NCBI GenBank assembly: GCA_016744375.1
Contig: JADGEM010000004.1
Location: 46,930-110,929 of the forward strand
Source of the DNA: Gammaproteobacteria bacterium
GTDB taxonomy: Bacteria > Pseudomonadota > Gammaproteobacteria > GRL18
Reading direction: 5' to 3'
DNA length: 64,000 bases
In this document: one piece after another, positions 12,731-57,651 of the stretch
Layout: the number at the start of each line of letters is the position of its first letter
Numbering within the stretch: the stretch's first letter is position 1
Translations under genes and position numbers: made by a program
Notes under the pieces: generated by a model
What the model was told of the DNA's origin: nothing
The model's database searches: none
Seen by the model: only the letters and a program-made list of their open reading frames with translations

Positions 12731-13540
12731 CTACCCTAATAAGCCCAACACACTTTGTGGCAAAGCATTTGCCTGAGACAGAACGGAAATACCAGCCTGT
12801 TGAAGAATCTGGAATTTGGTCAGTTTTGCTGTTTCCTGTGCAAAGTCTGCATCTTCAATACGGCTACGAGCAGCACTCAGGTTCTCTGCTGCATTTTCAC
12901 CATTACGAATGACTGATTCGAAACGATTCTGAACAGCACCCAAAGTTGCCCGTTGAGTATTAATTGACGCCAGAGCAGTATCAACTGTCGCAATCATTGC
13001 AGAAGCCGCAGCTACCGTAGCAACACCACCTGTTAATGTAGCATCAACGGAAGTTGTTGTGACAGTAATCACATTATTACCACCCGCATCTGGTCCTACC
13101 TGGAAAGCAAATGCCTGAGCACTGGCCCCAATTACTGCAACACCATTAAATTTAGTTTGTTGAACACGAATAATCTCTTCTTTAAGCTGTGTCACCTCTG
13201 TATTCAGAGCGGCCCGGTCAGTCGAGCTATTAGTTGCATTCGCTGATTGAACCGCTAACTCACGAATACGCTGCATGTTTATTGACATTTCATCATAAGC
13301 ACCCTCAGCAGTTTGTGCTAATGAAATCGCATCCGCTGCATTGCGAGTACCCTGATTATAACCACGGATCTGAGAAGTAAAACGTGACGCAATCGCTATA
13401 CCGGCCGCATCGTCTTTAGCACTATTAATGCGCTTACCTGATGATAATCTTTCCAGAGCTGTAGCCAAACCTGAATTTGTGCGATTTAAACTACTTTGTG
13501 CATTTAATGATGGAACATTAGAGTTAATTACCTGTGCCAT
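12731..13540 (-). CDS. fliC: Flagellin (269 aa; start corrected to [15 protein letters not shown])
   Basis: Canonical N-terminus [50 protein letters not shown] and C-terminus [53 protein letters not shown] before 13540. Confidence 0.97.
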
Positions 13541-13673
13541 GATGACATCTCCTGTGATATGCCCCACTAATCCCGTATTGTTTATATAAAACAATGCTTA
13601 AAGCAACGAATTGTGGAGAAATTTACTATGCGGATATACTCTCAAATGGAATATTCACCGCCTCTTGAACACA

Positions 13674-13700
13674 TTAGCGTCGGGATATTTATTTTCTTTA
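13674..13700 (-). promoter_or_regulatory. Candidate sigma-28 promoter for fliC
   Basis: Minus strand TAAA-N15-GACGCTAA (6/8 to GCCGATAA), about 134 nt upstream of the fliC start; same -10 octamer as at flgK. Confidence 0.65.
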
Positions 13701-13792: not shown

Positions 13793-16700
13793 ATGCTTAA
13801 TGAAACAATAAGTTTGGCATATTTTATGCTATATTTATTAAGAGAGAAATCCGTCAAAAAACAGGTACTAGAAGTGATTAAACTAAGTAACGACACCCAG
13901 TTAGGCACATTAATTGAAAATAATTTTGGTGATAAGTACCTTTTTTCAGTGAATCGAAAGAATTTTGAACAACTTGATTATCAGACCCAATTTAACAAAG
14001 AATTTAATAAAACATTTGAGCAGAAAGATACACTCTACATTATAACTGGCACAGATTCAGGAATGATGGTTCAACAACTATTAAAAACGCCACCTGAAAA
14101 AGGTAGTGCTTATGTATTTATTGATTTCCCTGAAGTTATTGAATTGACAAAACATCTGTATAACCTGTCTAAACACAAAAGAATTATCGTAAGCACTGAA
14201 GACCAATGGGAGCAAGAAGCAAAAAAAATAGGGCTTGAAATTTATTTTACCATTAACAAAGTAGAACGAATAAAATCTTTTGCGGCACAATATTCTTATA
14301 TCAATGAATACATTTTTTTAAGGCAAACTATTGAGGACACAATAAACCATCTCATCTGGCAATATCAATCACAACTAGGCAGCAAGATATTTATCCAGAA
14401 ACAACTTGAAAATTTAGCAGAAAATCACACCCCAGCCATTATTCTGGAAAATTACTTTGAGGGGAAAGCAGCACTCATACTCGCAGGAGGCCCTTCTCTT
14501 GATCATTATATTGAATGGATTGAAGAAAACCAGGATCACTATGTGGTGATCGCAGTCACACGAATTGCCAGGCGTTTATTAGAAACCAAAATCAAACCTG
14601 ACATTTTTGTTTCAGTTGATCCTTTTCCTTCTAATTTTAATGCCAGTAAAGAAGTCTTTAATTATGAGAAAGAATGTCTGTTAGTCCATCAATACCATTT
14701 ATCCCCCATGCTATTGGGAAACTGGTTGGGAATCAATTTATATTTAGGTGACCTATTTCCCTGGAAGACCAATCTCAATCAAAGTAATCTAACAGGTATT
14801 GGGCCAACAGTAACTAATACAGCAATATTACTAGCCATTAAAATGGGCATCAGAGAGCAAATTCTTTTTGGCGTTGATTTGTGTTATAGCCCCGATGGAT
14901 ATACCCATGCATTAGGTAGTCAAGAATATGAAGCGGGACCTGATCTTAATAACATTGGTCAAACTGTTATTACCAATAAAGGTGAAAAAGCAGAAACAAA
15001 TTCTGCCTATTATGAAGCAAAAACAACCATTGAAAAATTAGCTATACTTGCAAAAGAATCTGGAGGCAGTATATACAATCCTTCACCAAACTCAGCTAAA
15101 ATAAATTATGTAAAATATATTTCAATTGATGAGATAAAAATAAATAAAGAACACATTAGTATTTCAAAATTCCTGAAAAAACAATTATCACAACATAAAG
15201 AACACTTTTATTTAAAAATAAAACATTATCAAAATATTATCAAAGAGCTTAATGCTGCACAATTTAAAGTCAATAAAATTGAAGAATTAGCAAAAAAAGG
15301 ATTGGAGTATAATCGAAATTTTTTTGCAGATGATAATCCTGAAGCAAATTTTAAATTCAAGCTTAAAATGGATAAGCTGGAAAAAGAATTAAATAACAAA
15401 AATTTGATTAATTTTTCAGAGTTAGCAAAAAAATTTGGTATCAATGAGTTTTTATATTTTCTGAATACTGATACTGATCGAGAATGGAGCAATGAAGAAA
15501 TAAAAAAATCTGGAGATATTTATTATAAAGCATTCAAAACTGGAGCAATAGAATTAGGCAGGCAGATATTTACAGCAGTGAATCGAACTGAAGCAAGACT
15601 TTTAGAATGTAACAATCTCAATATTAACAATAATTTAATAAAAAGGCATCTCTGTTCTTTTAACCAATCTTATTTACTTGAGAGACAAATTTACAATCAA
15701 GTAAATAGACTAGATAGAATAAATAGAAAAATAGAAAAAACCTCCTTTGCTCAAAAACAACAACAATTAGTAAAGTTAGATTACTTAAAACAAACCAAAA
15801 ATGACACTATCAAAAAATGTAAAGACTTATACACTACATTTAAAGCAAACGAAGAAACTATAGGAATAAATAATAAAGAAAGATTACAGTCTATCGCTTT
15901 TTATTTAATTATGTTACAAAATGAAGAAAACTATCAAACAAGAAGAATACAGATCCTACAGAACAAAAATCCGGAACTTTTTTTTATTTCTCATACAATA
16001 AACTTTCTTGGCGCATCACCACTTGATTACATTAACAGACAAAACAATATCAATGAAAAATTTTTGGCTACCAAAAGATTAAACAAAAAATCAATCATAA
16101 TAAACCAAATAAAAAATCTTACAGAAAATCACACTCCTGTCACTGTATTAAAAAAATTATTTTCAAAGGAATCAGCTCTTATTCTTATAAATGAAGAATC
16201 CATTAATAACCATATTGAGTGGCTTGAAAAAAATCAAAATAATTTTGTTGTAATCACTAATAGCAGAATATCAAAATACTTATTAAAGACAGCAATAAAG
16301 CCCGATTTCATAATTGCCAAAAGCTCAAATATAAATGACTTCAATGTGCACAAAGATACTTATCACTATGAAAAAAACAGTATCTTGGTCCATCAAAATA
16401 ATCTTTCACAAATATTTCTAGGTAATTGGTTTGGGGTCAATCTCTTTTCTGGCTCATTATTTCCGTGGGAATCAGAAATTGATATTGAAAATTTATCCAG
16501 TACAGTTTTAGATATTGATCCTGCATCAGAGGACATAGTCAACATGGCTGTTTCTTTTGCACATCAAACAGGTATTATCCGACAAATAATCTTTACTGAT
16601 TCATATCATAGTTCATTTACAAAAATTTCTAAGGATGTAGATAATTCAGGTAGTACATTATTAACCCCCGTTAAAAACAAAAACAAACCTGACATAGTCA

Positions 16701-18091
16701 CTCAAATAAAGATAGATGACATTCAAATCCCAGAAACATCTATTGACATCCAGGAATTAATTAAGATTAAACAACTCTCCACAACTTTTTCCTCCAAAAA
16801 TATAGTTCATTATAAAAATATATTAAAAGAATTGATTTATATACAGGATATACTTATAAAAATGAACACTATTGTCAGTAATGCAACTGAAACAATACAA
16901 GCACACTTTTCTAATACCTTACAACCCAATGATGAAATTAATCAACTGGAGAAGAAACTTAACCAAAGTGAATATAAACATATTTCAAAATTATTGATAC
17001 TTTTTTCAGGTACTCCTTTTTTATACTTTCTACAACAAAATGAATCTGAAGAACATAGGCTAGAGACTTATTCAGAAATCAGATTATTTCTATCAACTCT
17101 TACTAATCTTAGAAAACAAATTTTTACAGCAATTAATCGAACTGAAATTAGATTACTCGAACAAGATCAACTCATTTTATCAGATGATGTGATCAATAGA
17201 CACATAGATTCATATGATAAAACTTACTTAATGGATACCTTAAATTCAGCACAAAAGAAAACTATTCTTGCTCAACAGAATGAAAAAATTAAGGCTTATT
17301 ATCACCAGGATAAACTCATTGGAAAAACAAAAATAGACAGACAAAATGCCATGTCTTTTATATTACTAACCGAACAATATGGACGAGACACTACAACCAG
17401 AAGAATTTATATTTTTGAACAGAAAAACAAAAGTCTATTTAAGTATTCAGAAAATAGTGCCATATTGGGTGTAAAGAATAAAGAGATTAAAGAGATGCAT
17501 AAAGCAAGCTTTGAAAATCTTATATCTGCAAATGATAAAGTTAAGTTAGAAGGACTCGAAATAAAACTTTACAACCTATTTAATCTTAAAGAAACAAAAT
17601 CTATTAAACAAATTATTAGGGGCATTAATTTATTTGGAAGTATTCAACCAGAAAGTGAAGCATTATTACATTTAGCCAATGGTTATTATTGTGAATTATC
17701 AAACAACATAGATCAGGCAATTATAGAATATGGGGCTGCAGATCACCCCAAAACGATTGAAAGTGCACTAAAAAGGCTTGCCGCCATTACATTGGGGCAA
17801 GGTAACCTGCAATATGCTCACGAGGTACTAGTGCTGCTTTCTGATATCTCCCCAACATACCTTCCTCAACTTGCAGAACTGTACATCATTAGTAAAAATT
17901 ATAAAAACGCATTAGAAATATATACTCAATATTTAGAATATAACATGTCAGATGTATTCATTTTATTAAAAGTCGCTAATTTATATGAATCACAGGACAT
18001 TACTGATGGAGCACAATTTATATACAAGCATATTCTTGAAATAGAACCCGAAAACTCTATTGCATTAAAAGCAACAAGAGAGATACATTAG
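13793..18091 (+). CDS. Maf-type motility-associated (flagellin) glycosyltransferase, duplicated architecture with TPR-like C-terminus
   Basis: 1432 aa; KAALILAGGPSLDHYIEWI...KPDIFVSVDPFPSN...TGIGPTVTNTAILLA...FGVDLCYSPDGYTHA is the DUF115/Maf core; divergent from fliC. Confidence 0.85.
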   Translation: MLNETISLAYFMLYLLREKSVKKQVLEVIKLSNDTQLGTLIENNFGDKYLFSVNRKNFEQLDYQTQFNKEFNKTFEQKDTLYIITGTDSGMMVQQLLKTPPEKGSAYVFIDFPEVIELTKHLYNLSKHKRIIVSTEDQWEQEAKKIGLEIYFTINKVERIKSFAAQYSYINEYIFLRQTIEDTINHLIWQYQSQLGSKIFIQKQLENLAENHTPAIILENYFEGKAALILAGGPSLDHYIEWIEENQDHYVVIAVTRIARRLLETKIKPDIFVSVDPFPSNFNASKEVFNYEKECLLVHQYHLSPMLLGNWLGINLYLGDLFPWKTNLNQSNLTGIGPTVTNTAILLAIKMGIREQILFGVDLCYSPDGYTHALGSQEYEAGPDLNNIGQTVITNKGEKAETNSAYYEAKTTIEKLAILAKESGGSIYNPSPNSAKINYVKYISIDEIKINKEHISISKFLKKQLSQHKEHFYLKIKHYQNIIKELNAAQFKVNKIEELAKKGLEYNRNFFADDNPEANFKFKLKMDKLEKELNNKNLINFSELAKKFGINEFLYFLNTDTDREWSNEEIKKSGDIYYKAFKTGAIELGRQIFTAVNRTEARLLECNNLNINNNLIKRHLCSFNQSYLLERQIYNQVNRLDRINRKIEKTSFAQKQQQLVKLDYLKQTKNDTIKKCKDLYTTFKANEETIGINNKERLQSIAFYLIMLQNEENYQTRRIQILQNKNPELFFISHTINFLGASPLDYINRQNNINEKFLATKRLNKKSIIINQIKNLTENHTPVTVLKKLFSKESALILINEESINNHIEWLEKNQNNFVVITNSRISKYLLKTAIKPDFIIAKSSNINDFNVHKDTYHYEKNSILVHQNNLSQIFLGNWFGVNLFSGSLFPWESEIDIENLSSTVLDIDPASEDIVNMAVSFAHQTGIIRQIIFTDSYHSSFTKISKDVDNSGSTLLTPVKNKNKPDIVTQIKIDDIQIPETSIDIQELIKIKQLSTTFSSKNIVHYKNILKELIYIQDILIKMNTIVSNATETIQAHFSNTLQPNDEINQLEKKLNQSEYKHISKLLILFSGTPFLYFLQQNESEEHRLETYSEIRLFLSTLTNLRKQIFTAINRTEIRLLEQDQLILSDDVINRHIDSYDKTYLMDTLNSAQKKTILAQQNEKIKAYYHQDKLIGKTKIDRQNAMSFILLTEQYGRDTTTRRIYIFEQKNKSLFKYSENSAILGVKNKEIKEMHKASFENLISANDKVKLEGLEIKLYNLFNLKETKSIKQIIRGINLFGSIQPESEALLHLANGYYCELSNNIDQAIIEYGAADHPKTIESALKRLAAITLGQGNLQYAHEVLVLLSDISPTYLPQLAELYIISKNYKNALEIYTQYLEYNMSDVFILLKVANLYESQDITDGAQFIYKHILEIEPENSIALKATREIH

Positions 18092-26613: not shown

Positions 26614-27379
26614 CTATTAAATTATGAATGGGATTATTAGAAAATTTTATATGCCAGTCATCATTTCCATCCCAGGGGACAAGCTTAACAGGATCAGACT
26701 GAGCTTTTTTTAGCATGTTAATCGTGCCTATGTCTTTATGAATATCATTATTTTTCCATGTTGCAATATGATTGATAAAGTGAGGAATAACCTCTGTACT
26801 AAAGTCAGTAGAAAATTCATTCTGTTTGATCCAGTCTACAATCTCAGGCTCAAGAATATACACTGCCGCGTTTGCTAAACGGGAAGGAGGCTTTTTTACT
26901 TTTTCATAAAAATTAATAACAACGCCCTGCTCATTTATTGCTACCACACCACAGCTTTCCGGATGCTCAGCCTCAAAAGTCATCATCGTCATCAGAGTCC
27001 CAGCGGGTCTATGGTTTTCATGGTAGTCAATGAAATCAGAGAAATTACAGTGGCACCAGTTATCCGCATGAGCAAGCAATATTTTATCACCTTGAAGAAA
27101 ATGATAATTTTCCCTGATTGTTCCAGCTGTACCGAGTAGAATCGGTTCATAAACCGATTCTACCCAGCACTTAAAATAGTCAAGCTTCAGAAAATTATTA
27201 TAAGTACCAGCATGATGATGTGTATTAACCAGTACTTTGCTAATCCCTTGTTCCTTCAATGTTGCCAGCCAGAATTCAAGAATGGGTTTACCATGCACAG
27301 GCATCAGACATTTTGGCCAAATATCAGTCAATGGTTGCAATCGAGTCCCTAAACCAGCAGCTAACAACATCGCTCTCAT
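26600..27379 (-). CDS. Sugar-phosphate nucleotidyltransferase
   Basis: MRAMLLAAGLGTRLQPLTDIWPKCLMPVHGKPILEFWL. Confidence 0.9.
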   Translation of the reverse strand: MRAMLLAAGLGTRLQPLTDIWPKCLMPVHGKPILEFWLATLKEQGISKVLVNTHHHAGTYNNFLKLDYFKCWVESVYEPILLGTAGTIRENYHFLQGDKILLAHADNWCHCNFSDFIDYHENHRPAGTLMTMMTFEAEHPESCGVVAINEQGVVINFYEKVKKPPSRLANAAVYILEPEIVDWIKQNEFSTDFSTEVIPHFINHIATWKNNDIHKDIGTINMLKKAQSDPVKLVPWDGNDDWHIKFSNNPIHNLIDDYD

Positions 27380-28806
27380 GGATTAATCGCCCGTTTCACT
27401 TCATCCAGGGTAAGAGGCGTATTACCCAGGCGTCCAACCTGTATTGCAGAAGCTAATGACCCCAATAGTGCCGACTGCCATATAGTTCCACCTACACAGA
27501 GTATCATTGCAGTCACAATTAACATTGAATCCCCAGCACCTGCTACATCTTTAGGAGTACTGTTAAGAGCTGGAATTCGATCAGTTGCAAAACCAATCTC
27601 TTCATCCTTACCGGCATGTATCAGCACACCTTCTTCTCCCAGCTTGAGCAAAATATTAAGTGCATTAGTCTGTTGTCTCAATTTTTCTGCCAATACAACC
27701 AATCCACTGCTATTATCATGCACAGCAACTCTTGCCTCATGCTCTGTTGGAGTCAATAGCTTCATATTTTTATATCGAGAAATGTCCCCAATCTGTGAAG
27801 AGCTTTGACTATCAGCAACAACATAGATATTTTTTTGAATGGCTATGTCTGAAATCATGTTAACCAGCTTATCAGGTAGGCAACCATAATTGAAGTCGGA
27901 AAAAACTAATAAATCAATATCATCAGCGACCTCATTCATCGCCTTTAGTATTTTTTTCTGTAGCTTGTGACTGATATCAGTCTGATGCAAATGGCTGACA
28001 CGCAAGAGCGTTTTATTTTTGCATCGATATCGTTGTTTCAACGTCGTAGGTCGATGTTTATCAATAACAAAATGTACACGAACGCTCATATCCGTCAACA
28101 TTTCCAGAGCCTGCTCATGCATTTCATCTTTTCCACAGATTGAAATAAAATCAACATGAGCACCAAGCCCTGCTGCATGTGCAGCAACAATACCCGCACC
28201 ACCAACAAAAAGTTGTTTATCAATAGGGGTAACGACGACAGTCGGATCTTCTTGTGACATTCCCAAAGGATCACATATAATATATTCATCCAGAATAAGA
28301 TCACCAATAACCGCTATTCGTAAATTTGCAACCAGATTAAGCTGCCGACAAAGTTCTTGATAAGTAATACGATGGCGTTTCATATAATCAACTGGAAACT
28401 GGAATGTTATTTTGTCTGAGGCAGCAAACTCCTGACGTAGCACTTCATATGAAGAAAAAGATATTTCGCCCGAATCAAATAATAATTCACCACCATATTG
28501 CTTCAATAAGTTTTCTTCAATATTATCCCTGCCTTCAAATTCTCTCCCTTTAACAAGAACATCAGGCTTTAAACGCTGTATTAATTGTTCAACCGTTTCA
28601 TTGGTTAAAAAAGCATCATCAACACAACTAATGCTGGATACGCCTTCAAGCCTTAAATCTTCAGGTACATGAATTGATTGAGATGAGCTGTGATCGGTAT
28701 GAACAGCTACTGTCAAATGATCACCACATTCGCTGGCAAAACGTAAAAAACGAATATGCCCAGGATGCAAAACATTAAAAACACCGATGACCAGTACATT
28801 TTTCAT
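27376..28806 (-). CDS. Bifunctional HldE-like protein: N-terminal nucleotidyltransferase + C-terminal PfkB-type kinase
   Basis: GVFNVLHPGHIRFLRFA (HxGH motif) at the N-terminus; kinase IAVIGDLILDEYIICDP...VGGAGIVAAHAAGLGA...DVAGAGDSMLI at the C-terminus. Confidence 0.9.
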   Translation of the reverse strand: MKNVLVIGVFNVLHPGHIRFLRFASECGDHLTVAVHTDHSSSQSIHVPEDLRLEGVSSISCVDDAFLTNETVEQLIQRLKPDVLVKGREFEGRDNIEENLLKQYGGELLFDSGEISFSSYEVLRQEFAASDKITFQFPVDYMKRHRITYQELCRQLNLVANLRIAVIGDLILDEYIICDPLGMSQEDPTVVVTPIDKQLFVGGAGIVAAHAAGLGAHVDFISICGKDEMHEQALEMLTDMSVRVHFVIDKHRPTTLKQRYRCKNKTLLRVSHLHQTDISHKLQKKILKAMNEVADDIDLLVFSDFNYGCLPDKLVNMISDIAIQKNIYVVADSQSSSQIGDISRYKNMKLLTPTEHEARVAVHDNSSGLVVLAEKLRQQTNALNILLKLGEEGVLIHAGKDEEIGFATDRIPALNSTPKDVAGAGDSMLIVTAMILCVGGTIWQSALLGSLASAIQVGRLGNTPLTLDEVKRAINP

Positions 28807-40860: not shown

Positions 40861-42522
40861 TCATAATTGTCGGTGTTTATTTACAGTTTCAAACGAAGGG
40901 CAACGCAAACAAATATCTTTAGGTTTCTCTTCTATTAAACTCAACACAAAATTATTGTATTTCTGAGAAGCAAATATCTCATCATAAGTTTGGTTTAATA
41001 GATTGCCAAAATTATAAACACTTGAATCTGGTCTTAAACAACAAGGAGTTACCCAGCCATCATGGGTAATAAATATTTTTTGACTTAAGCCACACTTATG
41101 GTATGAAAAATCATAATCAATATCCCTTTCCAGAAAAACATCAACATCTAACTTTTTTCCTAATTCTTTAGCTTCATTTACTTCAGAAAGGATCCAATTG
41201 ATATCCTTATAATTACTCTTAGCCATCCTATCTCTTACTAATAAGTTGTTGGCATCCAAAACATCTCCACCTCTATCATAATTTGTATTGAGTAATTTAA
41301 AATTCAGTGCCTTTACACCAAGTTCTGATACTTTTTCAACCATTAATTTTATTTCAGTATGATTATCAAATTGAATAACGCAGTTTACCCAAAACTCATC
41401 TAATAAAAAACTATTATTATTAATGACTTTAATTATTTGCTTTATATTCTTACAAACCAAATTAAAGTCACCTTTTAGTCGAATGGATTCAAATGATTGT
41501 GCGGTAGCACCATCTAATGAAATATTAAAAAAATCAAGATTTTCTAACACTTCTTCCAAGTATTCATCACTTACAGGAACCATAGCATTAGTGATAGTAC
41601 GAGTTAAAATGCCTCTTTTTTTTGCATAAGCGAGCATTTTTGGTAAATTTTTATTTAGAAAAGGTTCTCCATCACCATTAAAATTTATTCGTTTCAGATC
41701 AGGTAGAGCATCCATGATCTTAATGTATTTATCATAATGCAATGTACCGAATGATTTCCTTGATAATCTTGCACACATAATGCAATCTAAATTACATTGG
41801 TTAGTTGGCTCAATATGAGCCATAACTATTTTTCCAATATAATCTGCTGACAATTTATCAAGATTGGGTTTGATATTTTTTTTTAAATAAAATCCAAGTT
41901 TATTTAAATCTTTATTTGAATTAATAGAAAGATCAAGCTTCTGGTATTGATTAAATTTGGAATCAAATTGTTTTACTAAAGGTGATTTTTTTTTACTATA
42001 AGATAAAATGTTAATATCTTTTGTAGTATCAATATACTTATAGAACTCATTTGAATGACTCTGTTTTTTTAAAGAGTCAGAATTTAATACTTCTGAGGGA
42101 GTTAAACCTTTAGGAGCATTGACAAATGTAAGATAGTCTGCAGGATTATTATCTAAATATCTAAGACTATTCTGAATCAATTGAGATTCTACAAAAGGAT
42201 TATTGGCAATAACTCTTACAAAATAAGTCAAAGTGAATTTGTTAATGTAATTTACAATCGTTTTTGATATACCATCAGTACTGACAAGTTTATATTCTAC
42301 ATTATGCATCATTAACAATTTATTAATTCTATCAGAAAATAAATCATGGCTAATAAAAACAACAATATCTTTTGACGAAAAATCATCCAACAAATTAAGT
42401 AAGCTATACTCTAAAATACTTTTACCAAAATAATTTTTTTTATAAATTGAACTATCAGCCAAGATATCATGAGAAAAATAATACTGAAGCAGTATCTTGT
42501 ACTTGCATTTTATTTTATTCAT
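40861..42522 (-). CDS. Degenerate SpsF-like nucleotidyltransferase domain fused to a radical SAM/SPASM enzyme
   Basis: Radical SAM CNLDCIMC and NGDGEPFLNKNL; C-terminal SPASM-like Cys motifs (CGLSQKIFITHDGWVTPCCLRP...CLRCP); N-terminal ~200 aa resembles SpsF (RVIANNPFVESQLI). Confidence 0.82.
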   Translation of the reverse strand: MNKIKCKYKILLQYYFSHDILADSSIYKKNYFGKSILEYSLLNLLDDFSSKDIVVFISHDLFSDRINKLLMMHNVEYKLVSTDGISKTIVNYINKFTLTYFVRVIANNPFVESQLIQNSLRYLDNNPADYLTFVNAPKGLTPSEVLNSDSLKKQSHSNEFYKYIDTTKDINILSYSKKKSPLVKQFDSKFNQYQKLDLSINSNKDLNKLGFYLKKNIKPNLDKLSADYIGKIVMAHIEPTNQCNLDCIMCARLSRKSFGTLHYDKYIKIMDALPDLKRINFNGDGEPFLNKNLPKMLAYAKKRGILTRTITNAMVPVSDEYLEEVLENLDFFNISLDGATAQSFESIRLKGDFNLVCKNIKQIIKVINNNSFLLDEFWVNCVIQFDNHTEIKLMVEKVSELGVKALNFKLLNTNYDRGGDVLDANNLLVRDRMAKSNYKDINWILSEVNEAKELGKKLDVDVFLERDIDYDFSYHKCGLSQKIFITHDGWVTPCCLRPDSSVYNFGNLLNQTYDEIFASQKYNNFVLSLIEEKPKDICLRCPSFETVNKHRQL

Positions 42523-48273: not shown

Positions 48274-49083
48274 TTAATCTATTTTTTTAACAAGAGAGGT
48301 AAGAATTTTCTGGTAACTGGTTATTTTCGCTAATTCATTCACCGTAAATTTAATCTGTGCCAATTTTTCAAGTTCCATAATTAATAATAATTGATGCAAA
48401 GAATCCCAATTGGCAGTAACGCCCAGTTCAGCATGTTCTATCACTTCTTTATGAGTCAGGTCTGGAAAGACGGTCTGAAAAGCCTTCAATATTATTTCTT
48501 CAGCAATTCGACTTGAACCCTTTACCTGAACGGGAAATTCATCACTGTTCTTTGAAGTGGGTTTTGATATAGCCTCTGAGAAGGCTTGAGTCTGACTGAT
48601 TTGGGAAGAAGAAGGATAAGCTTCTAAAAACTCAAATAATCCGTGTTCAGGATGCATTAGAAAAGCAACCCTACGACCATCAAAGGCATCATCTTCACGC
48701 TGCCCTACTATTTTGACAGCACCGTTCTTTTGGGCAGTTTCTACTGCATCATCAAGATCATTGACCAGAAAGCAGAGGTGATAGGCCCCTCCCCCTTTTT
48801 TTACATGCTCTGAGATTGGAGAGTTTTTTCTCACACCCAAAATTTCAATCGTCATCCCCTGAGAGGTTCTTACAAAGGCATAATCAACATTTTGACTCTC
48901 ATTAACCCCAGGACCACGAAGCAGCTCACAACCTTCAATCCCCAGATAATCATGTAAAACATGATTCAGATCCACAGTTGTCACTGCAATATGATCGATG
49001 GATTTAACACCGCATTTTTTCCAGAATGAGCCTTCAGCTTGTAATAAAGAACCTTCAGCCTGGAGAGAGCTATTATTAATCAT
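48274..49083 (-). CDS. VOC/glyoxalase-like domain fused to a C-terminal acyl-carrier-protein-like domain
   Basis: VOC: KSIDHIAVTTVDLNHVLHDYLGIEG...GGGAYHLCFLVNDLDDAVETA; ACP-like C-terminus with WDSLHQLLLIMELE (DSL phosphopantetheine motif). Confidence 0.8.
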   Translation of the reverse strand: MINNSSLQAEGSLLQAEGSFWKKCGVKSIDHIAVTTVDLNHVLHDYLGIEGCELLRGPGVNESQNVDYAFVRTSQGMTIEILGVRKNSPISEHVKKGGGAYHLCFLVNDLDDAVETAQKNGAVKIVGQREDDAFDGRRVAFLMHPEHGLFEFLEAYPSSSQISQTQAFSEAISKPTSKNSDEFPVQVKGSSRIAEEIILKAFQTVFPDLTHKEVIEHAELGVTANWDSLHQLLLIMELEKLAQIKFTVNELAKITSYQKILTSLVKKID

Positions 49084-51322
49084 TGTCTACTAAATCCTGA
49101 TTATTTTTTAGAGTAATCCATCCTGGTATAGGAATACTTTTATCAATTATGTTCATTTCATAGCAGTACTCTTCACGCTGTTGAAACCCCAGTTTAGAAT
49201 AAAGATCCCGCACCGGTGTATTTCGTTCAGTGGGTATAATTTCACCTCTGATTATTGATAGTCCTCTTTCTTTTGCGTAGTGATACAGCCATGCCAGAGC
49301 AGCTCTCTCAATATCACGTCCCAGTACTCGACATGACAATAAGAATGTATCAATTATTATTGATGCAGAAGACTCAATAGTAAACATTAAGACACCAATA
49401 ATTTCATCACTTCCAAGGCGATCAGTTAAACGTATTGCATAGCAAAATCCTGTTTTATTAAACAATTCAAATTGTGCTTTCTTATAACGTCTGCTTGTTG
49501 TGTTAAACTGACTGGTTTTATTAATTAACTGCAAAACGCGCTGTTGATTCAAATCACTCAATAATTCAAAAGATAGACTCATATCCAGTTTATCTAAAAA
49601 ATCAGTTCTGGAATCATCACTCAGATGCACTTTATTAATTTTTGCCCGAATTTTATACTGCTGCGCTCTTTTAGTATCTTCGTCACTGATTCCTATATCG
49701 GCCAATTCCGGTAATCTTTTAATTATTTCCGGCCATTCACTGATTTCTTCCGGTAATTCAGGAACAAAGACTTCAGGCAGTCGGTGCCTGATCGCCTCCC
49801 GTTCAACAGGGTTGTCATCAATCATACAAAATGAAGATAATGGCAGGCCAAGCTCTTCAGATAGTTCAATCAGGTTATCTGATTTAGGGTTCCAGTTTAT
49901 ACGCCAGGCAGTTAAATCATCCAGAGATAAAAGCATTCCAGGATGTCTCTTAAAGACCTCTAACGCTGTTTGCTCATTATTTTTGCTGCAAAGAGCTAAT
50001 AAAAGGCCTCTTTGTCGGTAGTTGAGCATAATTGCCTGTATATTCTGAAAAACATTAGCAGGATAATCACCATCAACCGCAATACCTTCCATACCATCAT
50101 CACCAATAACACCAGACCAAAGTGTATCATCCAGATCAAGGACAATCACTCGGGCATTTTGAGCTTCAATTGCCATCATTAAAGCAATTATTTTTTCGCT
50201 CAGATAGTCATTCAATATCGATGAAAATGGTGCTCGTGCCAGGTACCAGTATTTACCCGGATGGGCAGACAAACGTCCTGTATCCTTAATCAACCCATCC
50301 ATATCAAGGATATGGCTATCATGTAACTCCCCACAAAGTGTTTCCAGTTCTTGACGCATTTTATTTAATGCAAGGGCAATTTTTTTTCTTTCATCATTAG
50401 TTGGATCGGAGCTTGTTATCCAGTGACTGACACTGGCTGCATTGGCAATAATAAAAACACCTGAAACTTTTGACCGGAAATGCCTGATAAAATTGAGATA
50501 TTCTTGCCATCGGCTTATCAACTCATCTAGAATCTGACAAGAAAGAATTGAATTAAGAGGTAAAAAATCTTCAATACGTTCAAGAAAAATAACATAACCA
50601 TTGATTGCTGAATTATTTTTCATTTCAGCAGCATATGAGGTATAAATAGGGCTGGATGGATCATTAGCCGCTATTTGATACTGTCCATAAGGAATATCTG
50701 CTATCTGAAGGTCAATAGAGTAATGTTTAGCACTGCTCTGAAACGCATTTTTAATAAAATCAAGGTTAGAGCTTCCCATCAGCATGCAACAAGATTGAAA
50801 ACGAATAGAGGGTGACTTATTTTCTTGTACAACGTCTTCTGAATTTAAAACAGTAATCACAACCTCTTCAATAACATCACCTTTTTTACGTTGTTCAATA
50901 GCGGTTTCAACAAATCCAAAACGTTTGTGCATTTCTAAAACCGGCTGATTAAATCGAAAGGTTTCACAATAGAGCTTCTGACAATTCAATTCATTAAAGG
51001 CATATTGAATTGCCTCTTGTTCCAGTAATTGCCAGTTCTGAAACGCATTTTTAGCATAATTAAAATCATTAGAAAGATAAAACCCCCAATGGCATGTATG
51101 ATTGTCTTTATCAATATCAAAAAAATTTACAACGCCCGCAGCAATACCATCTCGAACAAACATCAAACATTGTTGAGAATTATTACTGTTTAAACTTTGC
51201 CACCAGACCAGGTGCTCATCTGCAGTGATTAAATGATCCGTAAACATGTTCTTGCGAACATCTGGAGAATTTCTCCAGCTTCGTATTATTTCAAGTTCGT
51301 TTTTGTGTATCTTTCTGAGCAT
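49076..51322 (-). CDS. PseH-like N-acetyltransferase domain fused to FkbH-like HAD-GNAT protein
   Basis: N-term LEIIRSWRNSPDVRKNMFTDHLITADEHLVWW (PseH-like GNAT); centre VIVLDLDDTLWSGVIGDDG...LCSKNNEQTALEVFKRHPGMLLSLDDL (FkbH); C-terminal GNAT. Confidence 0.88.
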   Translation of the reverse strand: MLRKIHKNELEIIRSWRNSPDVRKNMFTDHLITADEHLVWWQSLNSNNSQQCLMFVRDGIAAGVVNFFDIDKDNHTCHWGFYLSNDFNYAKNAFQNWQLLEQEAIQYAFNELNCQKLYCETFRFNQPVLEMHKRFGFVETAIEQRKKGDVIEEVVITVLNSEDVVQENKSPSIRFQSCCMLMGSSNLDFIKNAFQSSAKHYSIDLQIADIPYGQYQIAANDPSSPIYTSYAAEMKNNSAINGYVIFLERIEDFLPLNSILSCQILDELISRWQEYLNFIRHFRSKVSGVFIIANAASVSHWITSSDPTNDERKKIALALNKMRQELETLCGELHDSHILDMDGLIKDTGRLSAHPGKYWYLARAPFSSILNDYLSEKIIALMMAIEAQNARVIVLDLDDTLWSGVIGDDGMEGIAVDGDYPANVFQNIQAIMLNYRQRGLLLALCSKNNEQTALEVFKRHPGMLLSLDDLTAWRINWNPKSDNLIELSEELGLPLSSFCMIDDNPVEREAIRHRLPEVFVPELPEEISEWPEIIKRLPELADIGISDEDTKRAQQYKIRAKINKVHLSDDSRTDFLDKLDMSLSFELLSDLNQQRVLQLINKTSQFNTTSRRYKKAQFELFNKTGFCYAIRLTDRLGSDEIIGVLMFTIESSASIIIDTFLLSCRVLGRDIERAALAWLYHYAKERGLSIIRGEIIPTERNTPVRDLYSKLGFQQREEYCYEMNIIDKSIPIPGWITLKNNQDLVDND

Positions 51323-51345
51323 AATTTTTAAAGAATAAAAGCCAT

Positions 51346-52080
51346 CTAAGTCTTTAATTTTTTTTGTTCAATTGCTTTATTGATGTCATAAATGTAGGGA
51401 TTTTTATCCAGCATTGAAACCAATTCATCATATTTAAATCTTGTTTTACAGGAAAATTGTTTATAAATTTCCTGAATTACCCGATAGTCCGCCAGTTCAT
51501 CAAGTGTAATTCGATATTTAGATGCATCCTTAATACTTTTTAACTGACCTATTTTAAATTTATTCGGATTCGATTTATAAATATACGGAGTCACATGTTC
51601 TTTTTCATAGTCTTGTGTTGCATTTGAGGATGCTTCTTCAAGTAGGGCAAAGTTAAACACTTCAACATCCAGTCCTCTTGGAAAACCCGTGCTAGAATTT
51701 GCAATAACATAGTCATAGCCATACTCTTCATAATATGATACCGCTAATTGGATCACATCCGAATCAATTAAAGGGCAATCGCTGGTGCAGCGAACAATAA
51801 TGTCATCATTCTTTAGCTGATACGATAAGGCAGCCTGATAATATCGGGATAAAACATTATCCATATCACCTTCGAAGAAATTTATATCTAGTTGCTGGCA
51901 AAGCTCAACAATCGGCTTTTGAGTACCATCATTTGTTGTCGCAATAATGATATTTTTTTTGAATGAGGAGAGTCGCTCCAACATGACTTCCAAAACGGTT
52001 TTACCACAAAGCGGCAGCATAATTTTTCCAGGCAACCTTGTACTTGTCATTCTTGCCTGAATAATGATAAAGACTGACAT
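51346..52080 (-). CDS. SpsF/PseF-like cytidylyltransferase
   Basis: IIIQARMTSTRLPGKIMLPLCGKTVLEVMLERL...VRCTSDCPLIDSDVI. Confidence 0.85.
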   Translation of the reverse strand: MSVFIIIQARMTSTRLPGKIMLPLCGKTVLEVMLERLSSFKKNIIIATTNDGTQKPIVELCQQLDINFFEGDMDNVLSRYYQAALSYQLKNDDIIVRCTSDCPLIDSDVIQLAVSYYEEYGYDYVIANSSTGFPRGLDVEVFNFALLEEASSNATQDYEKEHVTPYIYKSNPNKFKIGQLKSIKDASKYRITLDELADYRVIQEIYKQFSCKTRFKYDELVSMLDKNPYIYDINKAIEQKKLKT

Positions 52081-52084
52081 CGTT

Positions 52085-53272
52085 CTAGAGGAACCGTGGG
52101 TTCAAGTTGCTCAATAAAATATCACTTATTTTATGAGAAATAAAATCAACTTGTTCTTCCGTTAAATCCGTAAATAAAGGTAATGTGAGTGCTTCTTGAT
52201 AATAGGATTCACTTTCAGGGAAATCACCTTGTCTGAAACCCCGTTCTTGGTAAAAAGGTTGTGTATGGATAGGAATATAATGCACATGCACACCGATACC
52301 TGCCTGACGTAATTGTTCAAAGACACTTTTTCTATCGATTTTTAATTGTTTTAAATTTAATCGAATGACATAGAGGTGCCAGGAAGACTGTGCTTCCGGG
52401 TTTTGCCAGGGCATGGTTAGAGGCAATGACTGCAATTGATGATTGTATCTTTCAGCCAATTTTTTTCGTTTACTGATGAATTCATCCAGACACCGTAATT
52501 GTGATAATCCCAATGCAGCCTGGATATCAGTAATACGATAATTGTATCCTAAATCTAACTGCTGATAGTACCAGCCACCGTGAGATTCTTCAGTCATTAA
52601 ACCTGTTTCCCGGGTGATCCCATGTGTACTTAAACGCTTTATTTTATCGGCCAGTTGTGGATTATTTGTCATAATCATTCCACCTTCACCACTGGTGATC
52701 ATTTTAGCCGGATGAAAACTAAAAATAGTCAGCTCCGAATAAGCGCAGGAGCCCACTTTTTGATCGGTGTATTCCGCACCCAGAGCATGAGCAGCATCTT
52801 CAATAATTAAAAAACCATATTTTTTTGATAGTGACTTAAGTGCTTTCATGTCACAAGGCTGACCTGAAAAGTGAACAGGAATAATGACTTTTGGTATACG
52901 ATTATCTTTTTCAGCTTGCTGAAGTTTCAATGTTAATGAATCAATACAAATATTATACGTATCCGGATCAATATCAATAAAATCGACCTCTGCATTGCAG
53001 TATATTGCACAATTAGCAGAAGCAACAAAGGAATTAGGAGAGGTCCAGACAATATCTCCCACTCTGACTTCAAGTGCCAGGCAGGCAAGATGTAATGCCG
53101 CCGTTCCATGACTCACAGCAATAGCAAATTTAGCACCACAATATTTAGCAACAGCCTCTTCAAACTGAGAAATAACTGGCCCCTGAGTAATAAAATCAGA
53201 ACGCAGAACTTCGTTGACTGCTTCGATATCCTGTTCAGAAATTGATTGCTTAGCGTATGGAATCATACTCAT
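52085..53272 (-). CDS. pseC: UDP-4-amino-4,6-dideoxy-N-acetyl-beta-L-altrosamine transaminase
   Basis: MIPYAKQSISEQDIEAVNEVLRSDFITQGPVISQFEEAVAKYCGAKFAIAVSHGTAALHLA...FSFHPAKMITSGEGGM. Confidence 0.94.
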   Translation of the reverse strand: MSMIPYAKQSISEQDIEAVNEVLRSDFITQGPVISQFEEAVAKYCGAKFAIAVSHGTAALHLACLALEVRVGDIVWTSPNSFVASANCAIYCNAEVDFIDIDPDTYNICIDSLTLKLQQAEKDNRIPKVIIPVHFSGQPCDMKALKSLSKKYGFLIIEDAAHALGAEYTDQKVGSCAYSELTIFSFHPAKMITSGEGGMIMTNNPQLADKIKRLSTHGITRETGLMTEESHGGWYYQQLDLGYNYRITDIQAALGLSQLRCLDEFISKRKKLAERYNHQLQSLPLTMPWQNPEAQSSWHLYVIRLNLKQLKIDRKSVFEQLRQAGIGVHVHYIPIHTQPFYQERGFRQGDFPESESYYQEALTLPLFTDLTEEQVDFISHKISDILLSNLNPRFL

Positions 53273-53288
53273 ATATAAACGTTAGCCA

Positions 53289-54305
<1,017 letters not shown>

Positions 54306-54398
54306 TTAAATTGTTGTTATGACTAAAAATAGCATATACTTAGCATTATTTCCATAAGTAAAAAACTTTATATTATCAATAACTTATTTAGAAAGTTT

Positions 54399-55553
54399 AT
54401 GCTAAAAAAAATTAATCATTTTATTTTATATAAAAATGAACGTTATTTTTCATCTTTCCCCAGTATTGTTTTATTAGACAAAGCATCATCAAACAGCAAG
54501 CAATTACTTTTAATGTTTCGCCGTGCAAGGGACAGTCGATGGTTGTTGGATGGTGATGATGAAGAATCCATCCTTATAAAACATCAGGTTGATCATGTTG
54601 ATAGCCGATCTCAACTGACAAAAATGTTTTTTGATCTGAATCTGAACCCACTTTCTGACGCTGAAGCTTTACCCATTAATCCAGAAGCTGCAGATCAGGA
54701 CGCCTGTTTATTAGTTTTATCTAATAAGCAAATCTTACTGTCTTCTTTTTCCTGGTATCCCATTCATTCCAGATTGCGTAAACCACTACAAAAGAGAGGT
54801 GTTTTTCTTTATGGACAGCCGGAAACGACCGGATGTTTTTATCTCTTATGGGGTGGTTTTACCCGACTTTCTCAGGATCTTGGAAAAACCTGGACAAATC
54901 ACAATTATTTACCTGATTTACCAGGTACTAACGAAACTATACCAGATAAACAGATTGCTCACAGTGGTTCTGTTCGGGGGCAGGCTATTGAAGTTGGTCA
55001 TAAAATTTTATTGCCGGTATATACCCGATTAGCAGGTGATAATGTTGACAGCTCTCATTTATATTGTTCAAACGATATGGGAAAATCCTGGTCATATTAC
55101 TCAATGATTGCAAAAGATCATCAACAAAAACTCAATTTAAATGAGCCATCCTTACTCCATCTTGATGGTGAACGGATTATGGCTTTTATGCGTAATACCA
55201 GTGGCAATGATCATTTAGTCACAGCTGTCTCTAATGATCTTGGCCGTACCTGGGAAGACTGGCAAGAAAAAAAAATCACGGGTCATCCAACTCATCCATT
55301 AAGATTATCAGATGGCAGAATTTTTCTCTGCTATGGTTACCGTCATGAACCTTATGGTATCCGAGCTTGTTTAATGGACGCTTCTGCCGAGAATTTTATC
55401 GGTGATGAAATCATTATCCGTGATGATGGTTTGTGTGGTGATGTCGGTTATCCCTGGGCCGTTGAGATGCCTGATGGAAAAGTTCTAGTGGTTTATTATT
55501 TTACGAAAGATGATGGGATTCGCCATATTGCCGGTAGTCTATTATCAATTTAA
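54399..55553 (+). CDS. Sialidase (BNR-repeat)-family protein
   Basis: Three Asp-box motifs SQDLGKTW, SNDMGKSW, SNDLGRTW; MFRRARDSRW near the N-terminus; no obvious signal peptide. Confidence 0.82.
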   Translation: MLKKINHFILYKNERYFSSFPSIVLLDKASSNSKQLLLMFRRARDSRWLLDGDDEESILIKHQVDHVDSRSQLTKMFFDLNLNPLSDAEALPINPEAADQDACLLVLSNKQILLSSFSWYPIHSRLRKPLQKRGVFLYGQPETTGCFYLLWGGFTRLSQDLGKTWTNHNYLPDLPGTNETIPDKQIAHSGSVRGQAIEVGHKILLPVYTRLAGDNVDSSHLYCSNDMGKSWSYYSMIAKDHQQKLNLNEPSLLHLDGERIMAFMRNTSGNDHLVTAVSNDLGRTWEDWQEKKITGHPTHPLRLSDGRIFLCYGYRHEPYGIRACLMDASAENFIGDEIIIRDDGLCGDVGYPWAVEMPDGKVLVVYYFTKDDGIRHIAGSLLSI

Positions 55554-55567
55554 GGCCCCATTATTTT

Positions 55568-56593
55568 TCACTTCACACTGACTTCATGATAAATTGATGA
55601 GGCAATTCGTTGAGCCCCTTTGCCATCAATTAAAGTCTGAGCGGTCTGACTTAATTTCTCAAGCGAGCTGGAACTGAGCATATGTTCCGCCAGTGTAACC
55701 AGTTCAACAGCACTCTTTGGGTTGTTGCGTTGATCTTTACAGTCAACTACCCGGCACCAGCCATATTGACATTGTTCTTTTACAGATAAAAACTGGTTAT
55801 CTGCAACCACAGCAAAGACAGAAGGCACACCACAATACGCAAGCTCAAATACTGTTGAGCCAGCAGCTGAAATGGCAAGTCTTGCCCTGGAAAACAAAAC
55901 GGCCATATTTTTAACATTATGCTGATGTTCAAAACCCATTTTCTGACAAGATTCAGCCACTTTAGCAGTATTTTTACAGCCACTGCCCGTGACCACAACC
56001 ACATCAAGATTAACCAATGATGTATTATTAATTAAATTCAGCACGGGCAGTGTGAGTTCTGTGACATCAGATCCGCCAAACGTAATGACAAGCAACTTTC
56101 GTTCATTATAAAAAGAGGGTTTCAAATAGTGTCTATTCAAATCCTTAAATAAAGATCTCAATAAAATATATTGTGGACCCAGTAATAATTTTGCACTGGG
56201 GGTCGCTTCTTTATAAGGTAAAGAAGACGTACTTTTCACTGGGTTAATCACTAAATCTGCATAGAGCTGACCACGATTGCATTCATCATCCAGAACCACT
56301 AAAAGTGAATGGGTCAGTTTGGACAACTCAAGAAATAACTCCGTTGTATAGTCATAATGATCAATAATGATGACATCATAGTATTGAGCCATTAATGAGA
56401 AATCGTCTTCAGAGCGGATTATCTCAAGTTTGTGTGGCGTAACGGCATTTTCTGAGTGGATACTTATTGCAGCAAACGTGCATTCTATTGAGCAATCAAA
56501 CAAAGCATCAGCCAGGGCTTTCGAACGCATAACATGTCCCAAACCATATTTCCCGCCAGAATCCAGACGAAACAGCGCTCTATAAGAAATCAC
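55568..56593 (-). CDS. pseG: UDP-2,4-diacetamido-2,4,6-trideoxy-beta-L-altropyranose hydrolase
   Basis: YRALFRLDSGGKYGLGHVMRSKALADAL...VITFGGSDVTELT...AISAAGSTVFELAYCGVPSV. Confidence 0.94.
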   Translation of the reverse strand: MISYRALFRLDSGGKYGLGHVMRSKALADALFDCSIECTFAAISIHSENAVTPHKLEIIRSEDDFSLMAQYYDVIIIDHYDYTTELFLELSKLTHSLLVVLDDECNRGQLYADLVINPVKSTSSLPYKEATPSAKLLLGPQYILLRSLFKDLNRHYLKPSFYNERKLLVITFGGSDVTELTLPVLNLINNTSLVNLDVVVVTGSGCKNTAKVAESCQKMGFEHQHNVKNMAVLFSRARLAISAAGSTVFELAYCGVPSVFAVVADNQFLSVKEQCQYGWCRVVDCKDQRNNPKSAVELVTLAEHMLSSSSLEKLSQTAQTLIDGKGAQRIASSIYHEVSVK

Positions 56594-57651
56594 TCTTTTT
56601 CTTCAATATGATCCCAGCAAATAGCAGTACCCGGCTGGAGATCATTCGTGGCTATTTTTCCTAAGAGGGATACATAATACCTGGGAGACAAGCCAAAGCC
56701 AGGTCTAATCACCCGGATATTGTCTTCAGTAAAAACATCACCTTTTGCAATACCCTTGCAGCAATAAATTGAGCGGCGGTATTTTTTTGATTTTTGCTCA
56801 TTCTCTGAACCGCCATATTGAATATGACCCAATGCCGCATTAATTTTTATTGATTCTGACACCAAATCACCCAATTCTTCCGGCTCAAGTGAAAACTCTG
56901 CATCAATCCCCCCGGCCTGTCGGTCAAGAACAAAATGCTTTTCAACCAGACAGGCACCTAGTGCAACAGCAGCAAGTGAAACCGTAATGCCATCAGAGTG
57001 ATCAGAAAGACCAACAGGACAGTGATATGTTTTTTTCATATGAGCAATCGTTGCTAAATTACTGTCTGAAGCATCGGCGGGATAATTACTGGTACATTTG
57101 AGTAATAGAATCTGGTTGTTTCCGGTGTCACGAATTGTGCTAATCAACTCTTCAATTTCAATTTCAGAAGCCATACCGGTTGAGATAATAATGGGCTTAC
57201 CCGTTTGAGCTGTTTTCTTTATCAGCGGCAAATCATTGTTTTCAAATGAAGCAATTTTATAACAAGGGACATCCAGGGTTTCAAGAAAATCAACCGCACT
57301 GGCATCAAACGGGGAACTAAAAGCAATCAGACCTAATGATTTTGCTTTATCAAAAAGTGGTTTATGCCATTCCCACGGGGTTGAGGCCTTAGCATACAGT
57401 CCATAAAGATTTTCACCCTGCCATAAGCTGTTTTCATCATCAACAAGAAAGTCATCATTCTGAAGATTAAGAGTCATTGTCTCAGGCGTATAGGTTTGAA
57501 GCTTAATCGCATGAGCACCCGCAGCAGCAGCTGCTTCAATCATTTTTTCTGCCAGTGCATAATCCTGCTGATGGTTTCCAGAAAGCTCTGCGACAATGAA
57601 GGGGGTACAGCCATCACCAATTTCCGTATCAGCTATTTTTATTATTTTCAT
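56590..57651 (-). CDS. pseI: Pseudaminic acid synthase
   Basis: PFIVAELSGNHQQDYALAEKMIEAAAAAGAHAIKLQTYTPETMTL...GLSDHSDGITVSLAAVALGACLVEKHFVLDR. Confidence 0.96.
   Translation of the reverse strand: MKIIKIADTEIGDGCTPFIVAELSGNHQQDYALAEKMIEAAAAAGAHAIKLQTYTPETMTLNLQNDDFLVDDENSLWQGENLYGLYAKASTPWEWHKPLFDKAKSLGLIAFSSPFDASAVDFLETLDVPCYKIASFENNDLPLIKKTAQTGKPIIISTGMASEIEIEELISTIRDTGNNQILLLKCTSNYPADASDSNLATIAHMKKTYHCPVGLSDHSDGITVSLAAVALGACLVEKHFVLDRQAGGIDAEFSLEPEELGDLVSESIKINAALGHIQYGGSENEQKSKKYRRSIYCCKGIAKGDVFTEDNIRVIRPGFGLSPRYYVSLLGKIATNDLQPGTAICWDHIEEKE

Follow-up and report, generated by a model that had tools for sequence, protein, structure and literature searches.

A Maf-type glycosyltransferase encoded beside a flagellin gene carries an internal duplicate that lost its catalytic motifs and is retained under selection

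Maf glycosyltransferases recognise flagellin without a sequence motif, and this recognition is the question at stake in a gene that encodes the Maf unit twice, once with and once without its catalytic motifs. The window analysed was a stretch of 64,000 nucleotides from a gammaproteobacterium (assembly GCA_016744375.1, contig JADGEM010000004.1). The duplicated Maf-type glycosyltransferase was encoded by an open reading frame at positions 13793–18091 on the forward strand, with 1432 aa and no internal stop. The translated part is likely 13874–18091, starting at GTG 13874 and giving 1405 aa, and residues 1–27 of the frame are probably untranslated. This start was favoured because a conserved −24/−12 element lies inside the beginning of the frame (13816–13829 within 13813–13831, plus strand; TTTGGCATATTTTATGCTA, GG-N10-GC), which we take, from its match to the consensus, to be a putative sigma54-type promoter. 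Directly 5' of the start, GG-N10-GC was found at 9 of 11 distinct orthologous loci; the tenth showed it with one mismatch and the eleventh farther off. In the window, 0.13 matches to this element would be expected. At most orthologous loci it preceded the frame instead of falling inside. The N-termini of homologs coincided in the alignment with the position of GTG 13874, and the predicted model had low confidence at residues 15–27. A second conserved stretch at several loci, 13647–13700 (GGAATATTCACCGC...), was located between the flagellin and Maf genes and probably belongs to the promoter or leader of the flagellin gene, which is read from the minus strand.

All parts of the protein are encoded on the plus strand. 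The Rossmann-like N-terminal domain of Maf proteins (13874–14371, residues 28–193) was assigned by alignment and a structural match to 5MU5. Copy 1 followed with a Maf catalytic domain in which every motif was intact (14372–15142, residues 194–450) and a helical region (15143–16015, residues 451–741). Copy 2 comprised a pseudo-Maf domain lacking the catalytic motifs (16076–16792, residues 762–1000) and a second helical region (16793–17512, residues 1001–1240). The C-terminal tail (17513–18091, residues 1241–1432), present in single-copy orthologs as well, had been described as TPR-like in the initial annotation and was confirmed as TPR by sequence and structure matches.

The two copies had been reported to align along their length, and this was borne out. 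Copy 1 (residues 194–741) and copy 2 (762–1227) shared 32% identity over 560 columns (221 bits, E=1e-66), and their best local score was 602 versus 57 ± 9 (maximum 106) in 300 shuffles. The profile PF01973, with a curated cut-off of 34.6 bits, matched the protein twice, with 136.8 bits for copy 1 and 59.2 bits for copy 2, and a profile search of the rest of the genome found no further PF01973 gene. The reported repetition of the helical segments was likewise found: RQIFTAxNRTExRLLE was present after each copy, the repeated element being located at 15560–15658 in copy 1 (IFTAVNRTEARLLE...IKRHL) and at 17108–17209 in copy 2 (IFTAINRTEIRLLE...INRHI), and the TRRIxI...KNxxLF segment, also noted before as repeated, was seen in both. 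An assembly artefact was rejected, as three other genomes share the arrangement at 50–56% overall identity. Fusion with an unrelated second Maf gene was rejected as well, since copy 2 branched inside the family's own clade and shared a lineage-specific helical extension with copy 1.

Copy 1 retained the residues that are invariant among 17 Maf sequences with intact motifs, and held the invariant residues of GGPSLD, DP, GPTVTN, GVDLC and GxxHA. The model of copy 1 with the N-terminal domain showed the three-part Maf fold (N-terminal Rossmann-like, Maf and helical), and residues 33–638 matched 5MU5 with Z 25.0, 501 aligned residues and an rmsd of 8.2. The catalytic domain of copy 1 was also structurally similar to CMP-bound CstII (Z about 10). 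From this likeness and from family knowledge it follows that the Maf motifs would form the CMP-sugar site. The PF01973 cut-off, the motifs, the fold and the flagellin and nonulosonate context all placed copy 1 in the Maf/PseD group. No NCBIfam profile matched the window protein, including NF050051, the curated NCBI model for PseD, which is narrower than the Maf family; a single-copy ortholog (L025) scored 35.5 against it, far under the cut-off of 670. Copy 1 is most likely the catalytic unit.

For copy 2, residues were scored in four copy 2 sequences, in copy-1 numbering and with the same 17 intact Maf sequences as reference. Nearly all positions of the four nucleotide-sugar motifs were lost in most or all of the four, and most of these sites were retained by none or one of them. 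None kept G232, G233, P234, D237, V340, G360, D362, C364, G369, H372 or E378, and DP was still present only in the copy 2 of L023. All four kept W242, P269, D270, W311, G313, P323, W324, R602, E605 and R718. There were almost no new conserved sites specific to copy 2 that could point to a binding partner. The initial annotation had called all the motifs of copy 2 eroded, which held for GGPSLD, SVDP and GPTVTN, all replaced; GVDLC...GYTHA was deleted or unalignable rather than eroded. The AlphaFold model of copy 2 with the tail reached a pLDDT of 85.5. Its best PDB match was the Maf structure 5MU5 (Z 19.8, 333 aligned, rmsd 4.9), a match that is not independent of active Mafs, as these were contained in the alignment fed to AlphaFold. 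A different fold for copy 2 was dismissed on this match. CstII was missing among the copy-2 model matches listed, which is uninformative as TPR chains fill the list. A model of the whole chain folded both Maf and helix units.

In four genomes, selection has retained copy 2. When neutral drift was simulated up to the third-position divergence that was measured, it produced about 30 stops and 10–15% identity between lineages. Among the copy 2 sequences, no stops were observed, and identity was 33–40% in the Maf part and 26–38% in the helices. The lack of stops is partly forced because the TPR tail lies downstream; the identity is not so forced. Copy 2 evolved more rapidly than copy 1, the NG86 dN/dS being about 0.3–0.7 for copy 2 versus 0.07–0.3 for copy 1, with synonymous sites near saturation. 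Constraint on copy 2 is patchy: the first Rossmann half and one helical element are kept and the active-site half has collapsed. Within its Maf domain, identity among copy 2s was 36–52% in the first half and 17–24% in the second. The helical segment 1110–1139 showed 56% identity among copy 2s versus 62% among copy 1s, and 54% between the copies. The segments just N-terminal of it showed 17–20% among copy 2s versus 63–69% among copy 1s, and L020 showed a loss of about 60 residues in its copy-2 helical region. In G005 and G023, whose single-copy Mafs are more distant, segment 1110–1139 was weakly conserved; it is therefore a lineage feature, doubled in the duplicated proteins. With a Maf fold, no catalytic motifs and retention under selection, copy 2 fits the pseudoenzyme copy initially proposed; that it is kept for flagellin or acceptor binding, the other part of that proposal, is a tentative reading.

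The double architecture was also found in G004 (L023), G008 (L020, Gammaproteobacteria isolate BB34) and HyVt-500 (L021). Single-copy orthologs with a TPR tail were present in three genomes of the same genus, G007 (942 aa), G012 (918 aa) and G005 (849 aa), and one of the same family, G023, was single-copy on a contig that stops within the TPR tail. Two overlapping samples, of 369 genomes from Gammaproteobacteria and 397 from across Pseudomonadota, with PF01973 matches in 40 and 72 genomes, respectively, contained no frame with two complete PF01973 domains apart from the window's own; such a count could overlook a second copy that had decayed badly. By these sequence searches, tandem Maf is restricted to one small lineage among the Pseudomonadota genomes sampled. 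Copy 2 was not scored in G010, G018, G021 and G022, where contigs end within the gene. At L031, L033, L034 and L022, the contigs break off inside the Maf gene, at three of them shortly past copy 1. No plasmid relatives were found.

The four copy-2 Maf domains formed one clade (100/99) within the Maf clade of the family, and therefore derive from a single duplication event. In the tree of the N-terminal domain with copy 1, the single-copy protein of G007 was nested among the duplicated proteins (AU p 0.02, for a group chosen after the first tree had been seen). The simplest reading of these trees is one gain followed by loss of copy 2 in G007. G012 may predate the gain of copy 2 or have lost it, and interspecies transfer is possible in the history of this gene. 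Shortly downstream of the gene for its single-copy Maf, G007 also encodes a second, unrelated PF01973 protein (365 aa; L024:9236–10330, minus strand), and the cluster that contains it includes a second NeuB. This gene was considered as a split-off copy 2 and rejected, as it showed no similarity. NeuB domains in frames of about 750 aa (L026:5349–7598 and G000:C79:47755–48462) point to NeuB fusions in the genus.

The divergent neighbour of the Maf gene is a flagellin gene (12731–13594, minus strand). This arrangement was shared by most orthologous loci and was not found in G004 or the partial locus L022. At most loci, double or single, flagellin preceded relatives of the four genes that come next in the window; judged by sequence, these look like flaG, fliD, fliS and fliT. 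Among the loci compared, the presence of copy 2 showed no link to flagellin size or Ser/Thr content. Pseudaminic acid genes were located at 49076–57651 on the minus strand, encoding a PseH-FkbH fusion, a CMP-sugar transferase, PseC, PseB, PseG and PseI. PseB, PseC, PseG, PseH and PseI exceeded curated cut-offs within the window, and the cluster also encodes the CMP-sugar transferase family protein; the donor is therefore probably CMP-pseudaminic acid. In the fusion (49076–51322, minus strand), a PseH acetyltransferase domain is joined to an FkbH domain. Amid the cluster, a BNR-repeat (sialidase-like) protein outside the pathway is encoded on the opposite strand (54399–55553, plus strand). Elsewhere in the window, a CMP-sugar transferase-like part is joined to a radical SAM/SPASM part (40861–42522, minus strand), and an HldE-like protein has its domains reversed, with the adenylyltransferase-like domain before the heptose kinase (27376–28806, minus strand).

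Like the known Maf proteins (5MU5 of Magnetospirillum, PseD and Aeromonas Maf1), the window protein has an N-terminal Rossmann-like domain, a motif-complete Maf domain and helices, and as in Maf/PseD systems a flagellin gene adjoins it and pseudaminic acid genes are nearby. The catalytic half of the window gene is an ordinary Maf. The protein differs from a typical Maf in the added motif-less Maf and helical unit and the TPR tail that follows, and in its length of 1405–1432 aa compared with about 830–870 aa for typical gammaproteobacterial Mafs. The orthologs of G007, G012 and G005 have the same gene position, N-terminal domain, Maf, helices and TPR tail and differ in lacking copy 2. The sialyltransferase CstII (1RO8, 2X63) resembles the copy 1 catalytic domain in fold; unlike the window protein, it has no repeat, helices or TPR tail, and its acceptor is a sugar, not a protein. 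The flagellin O-glycosyltransferase FlmG of Caulobacter shares with the window protein a TPR domain, which in FlmG is the flagellin-binding part (PMC7591256). However, FlmG-type proteins are defined by a GT-B fold and an N-terminal TPR, whereas the window protein is CstII/Maf-like with a C-terminal TPR, and the catalytic parts are not homologous. In the open literature searched, no description of tandem Maf domains and no earlier description of a pseudoenzyme within the Maf family were found; on that literature, the fused, conserved, catalytically dead Maf copy is what is new.

Judged by what is known of the family, the acceptor is most likely flagellin and the donor pseudaminic acid. A Maf/PseD-type enzyme would move pseudaminic acid from CMP-pseudaminic acid onto the adjacent flagellin in the cytoplasm, with copy 1 performing the catalysis. 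One internal duplication of the Maf and helical unit would have produced copy 2, which would then have lost its nucleotide-sugar site and stayed as a non-catalytic module. Copy 2 would pack as a structural partner supporting copy 1 and supply a second helical element (IFTAxNRTExRLLE...INRHL). Together with the TPR tail, this element might give the enzyme two places at which to hold either its protein substrate or another enzyme chain. Aeromonas Maf1 binds flagellin without sugar and acts ahead of the chaperone (PMC4065374). For copy 2, docking or a pseudo-dimer function is a proposed role, and acceptor binding could equally well fall to the helices of copy 1 or to the TPR tail. Copy 2 also appears dispensable from the sequences compared, as single-copy orthologs exist and G007 apparently lost it.

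We regard it as somewhat probable that copy 2 is a retained non-catalytic structural or docking module beside the active copy 1. Its rapid divergence and in-frame deletions, like its apparent loss from G007 and its lack in G012, could instead mark a decaying passenger, fixed by drift and eroding in frame with a TPR tail that would suffice to hold the frame open. Such decay is unlikely, because copy 2s share two to four times as much amino-acid identity as neutral drift would leave and because constraint differs between segments, one helical element being conserved almost as well as in the active copy. Copy 2 might also descend from a homodimeric ancestor as the dead half of a pseudo-heterodimer, now stabilising or regulating copy 1 and making no contact with flagellin. 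The repetition of the entire Maf and helix unit, with both units predicted to fold in one chain, would suit this, as would the structural core and helical element kept around a lost active site; the single-copy orthologs of the same lineage speak against it, and we consider it quite unlikely. Copy 2 stays folded in the model and under some selection, as an enzyme with a new activity would, for example another sugar transfer or a sugar modification. This is very improbable, as the C-terminal half of the domain, where GVDL and GYTHA lie in active enzymes, is missing or not conserved and hardly any new conserved residues replace those lost.

Within the structural or docking reading, it is a tentative proposal that the motif-less copy acts together with its helical element as an allosteric or docking subunit, forming a second flagellin- or chaperone-binding site. 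If it is true, one chain could hold flagellin while multiple sites are modified. Copy 2 separates catalysis from the other roles of the Maf and helical unit, and the constraint left in it after catalysis was lost falls on the first Rossmann half and on a single helical element. For these roles, the single-copy orthologs at the same locus are natural controls.
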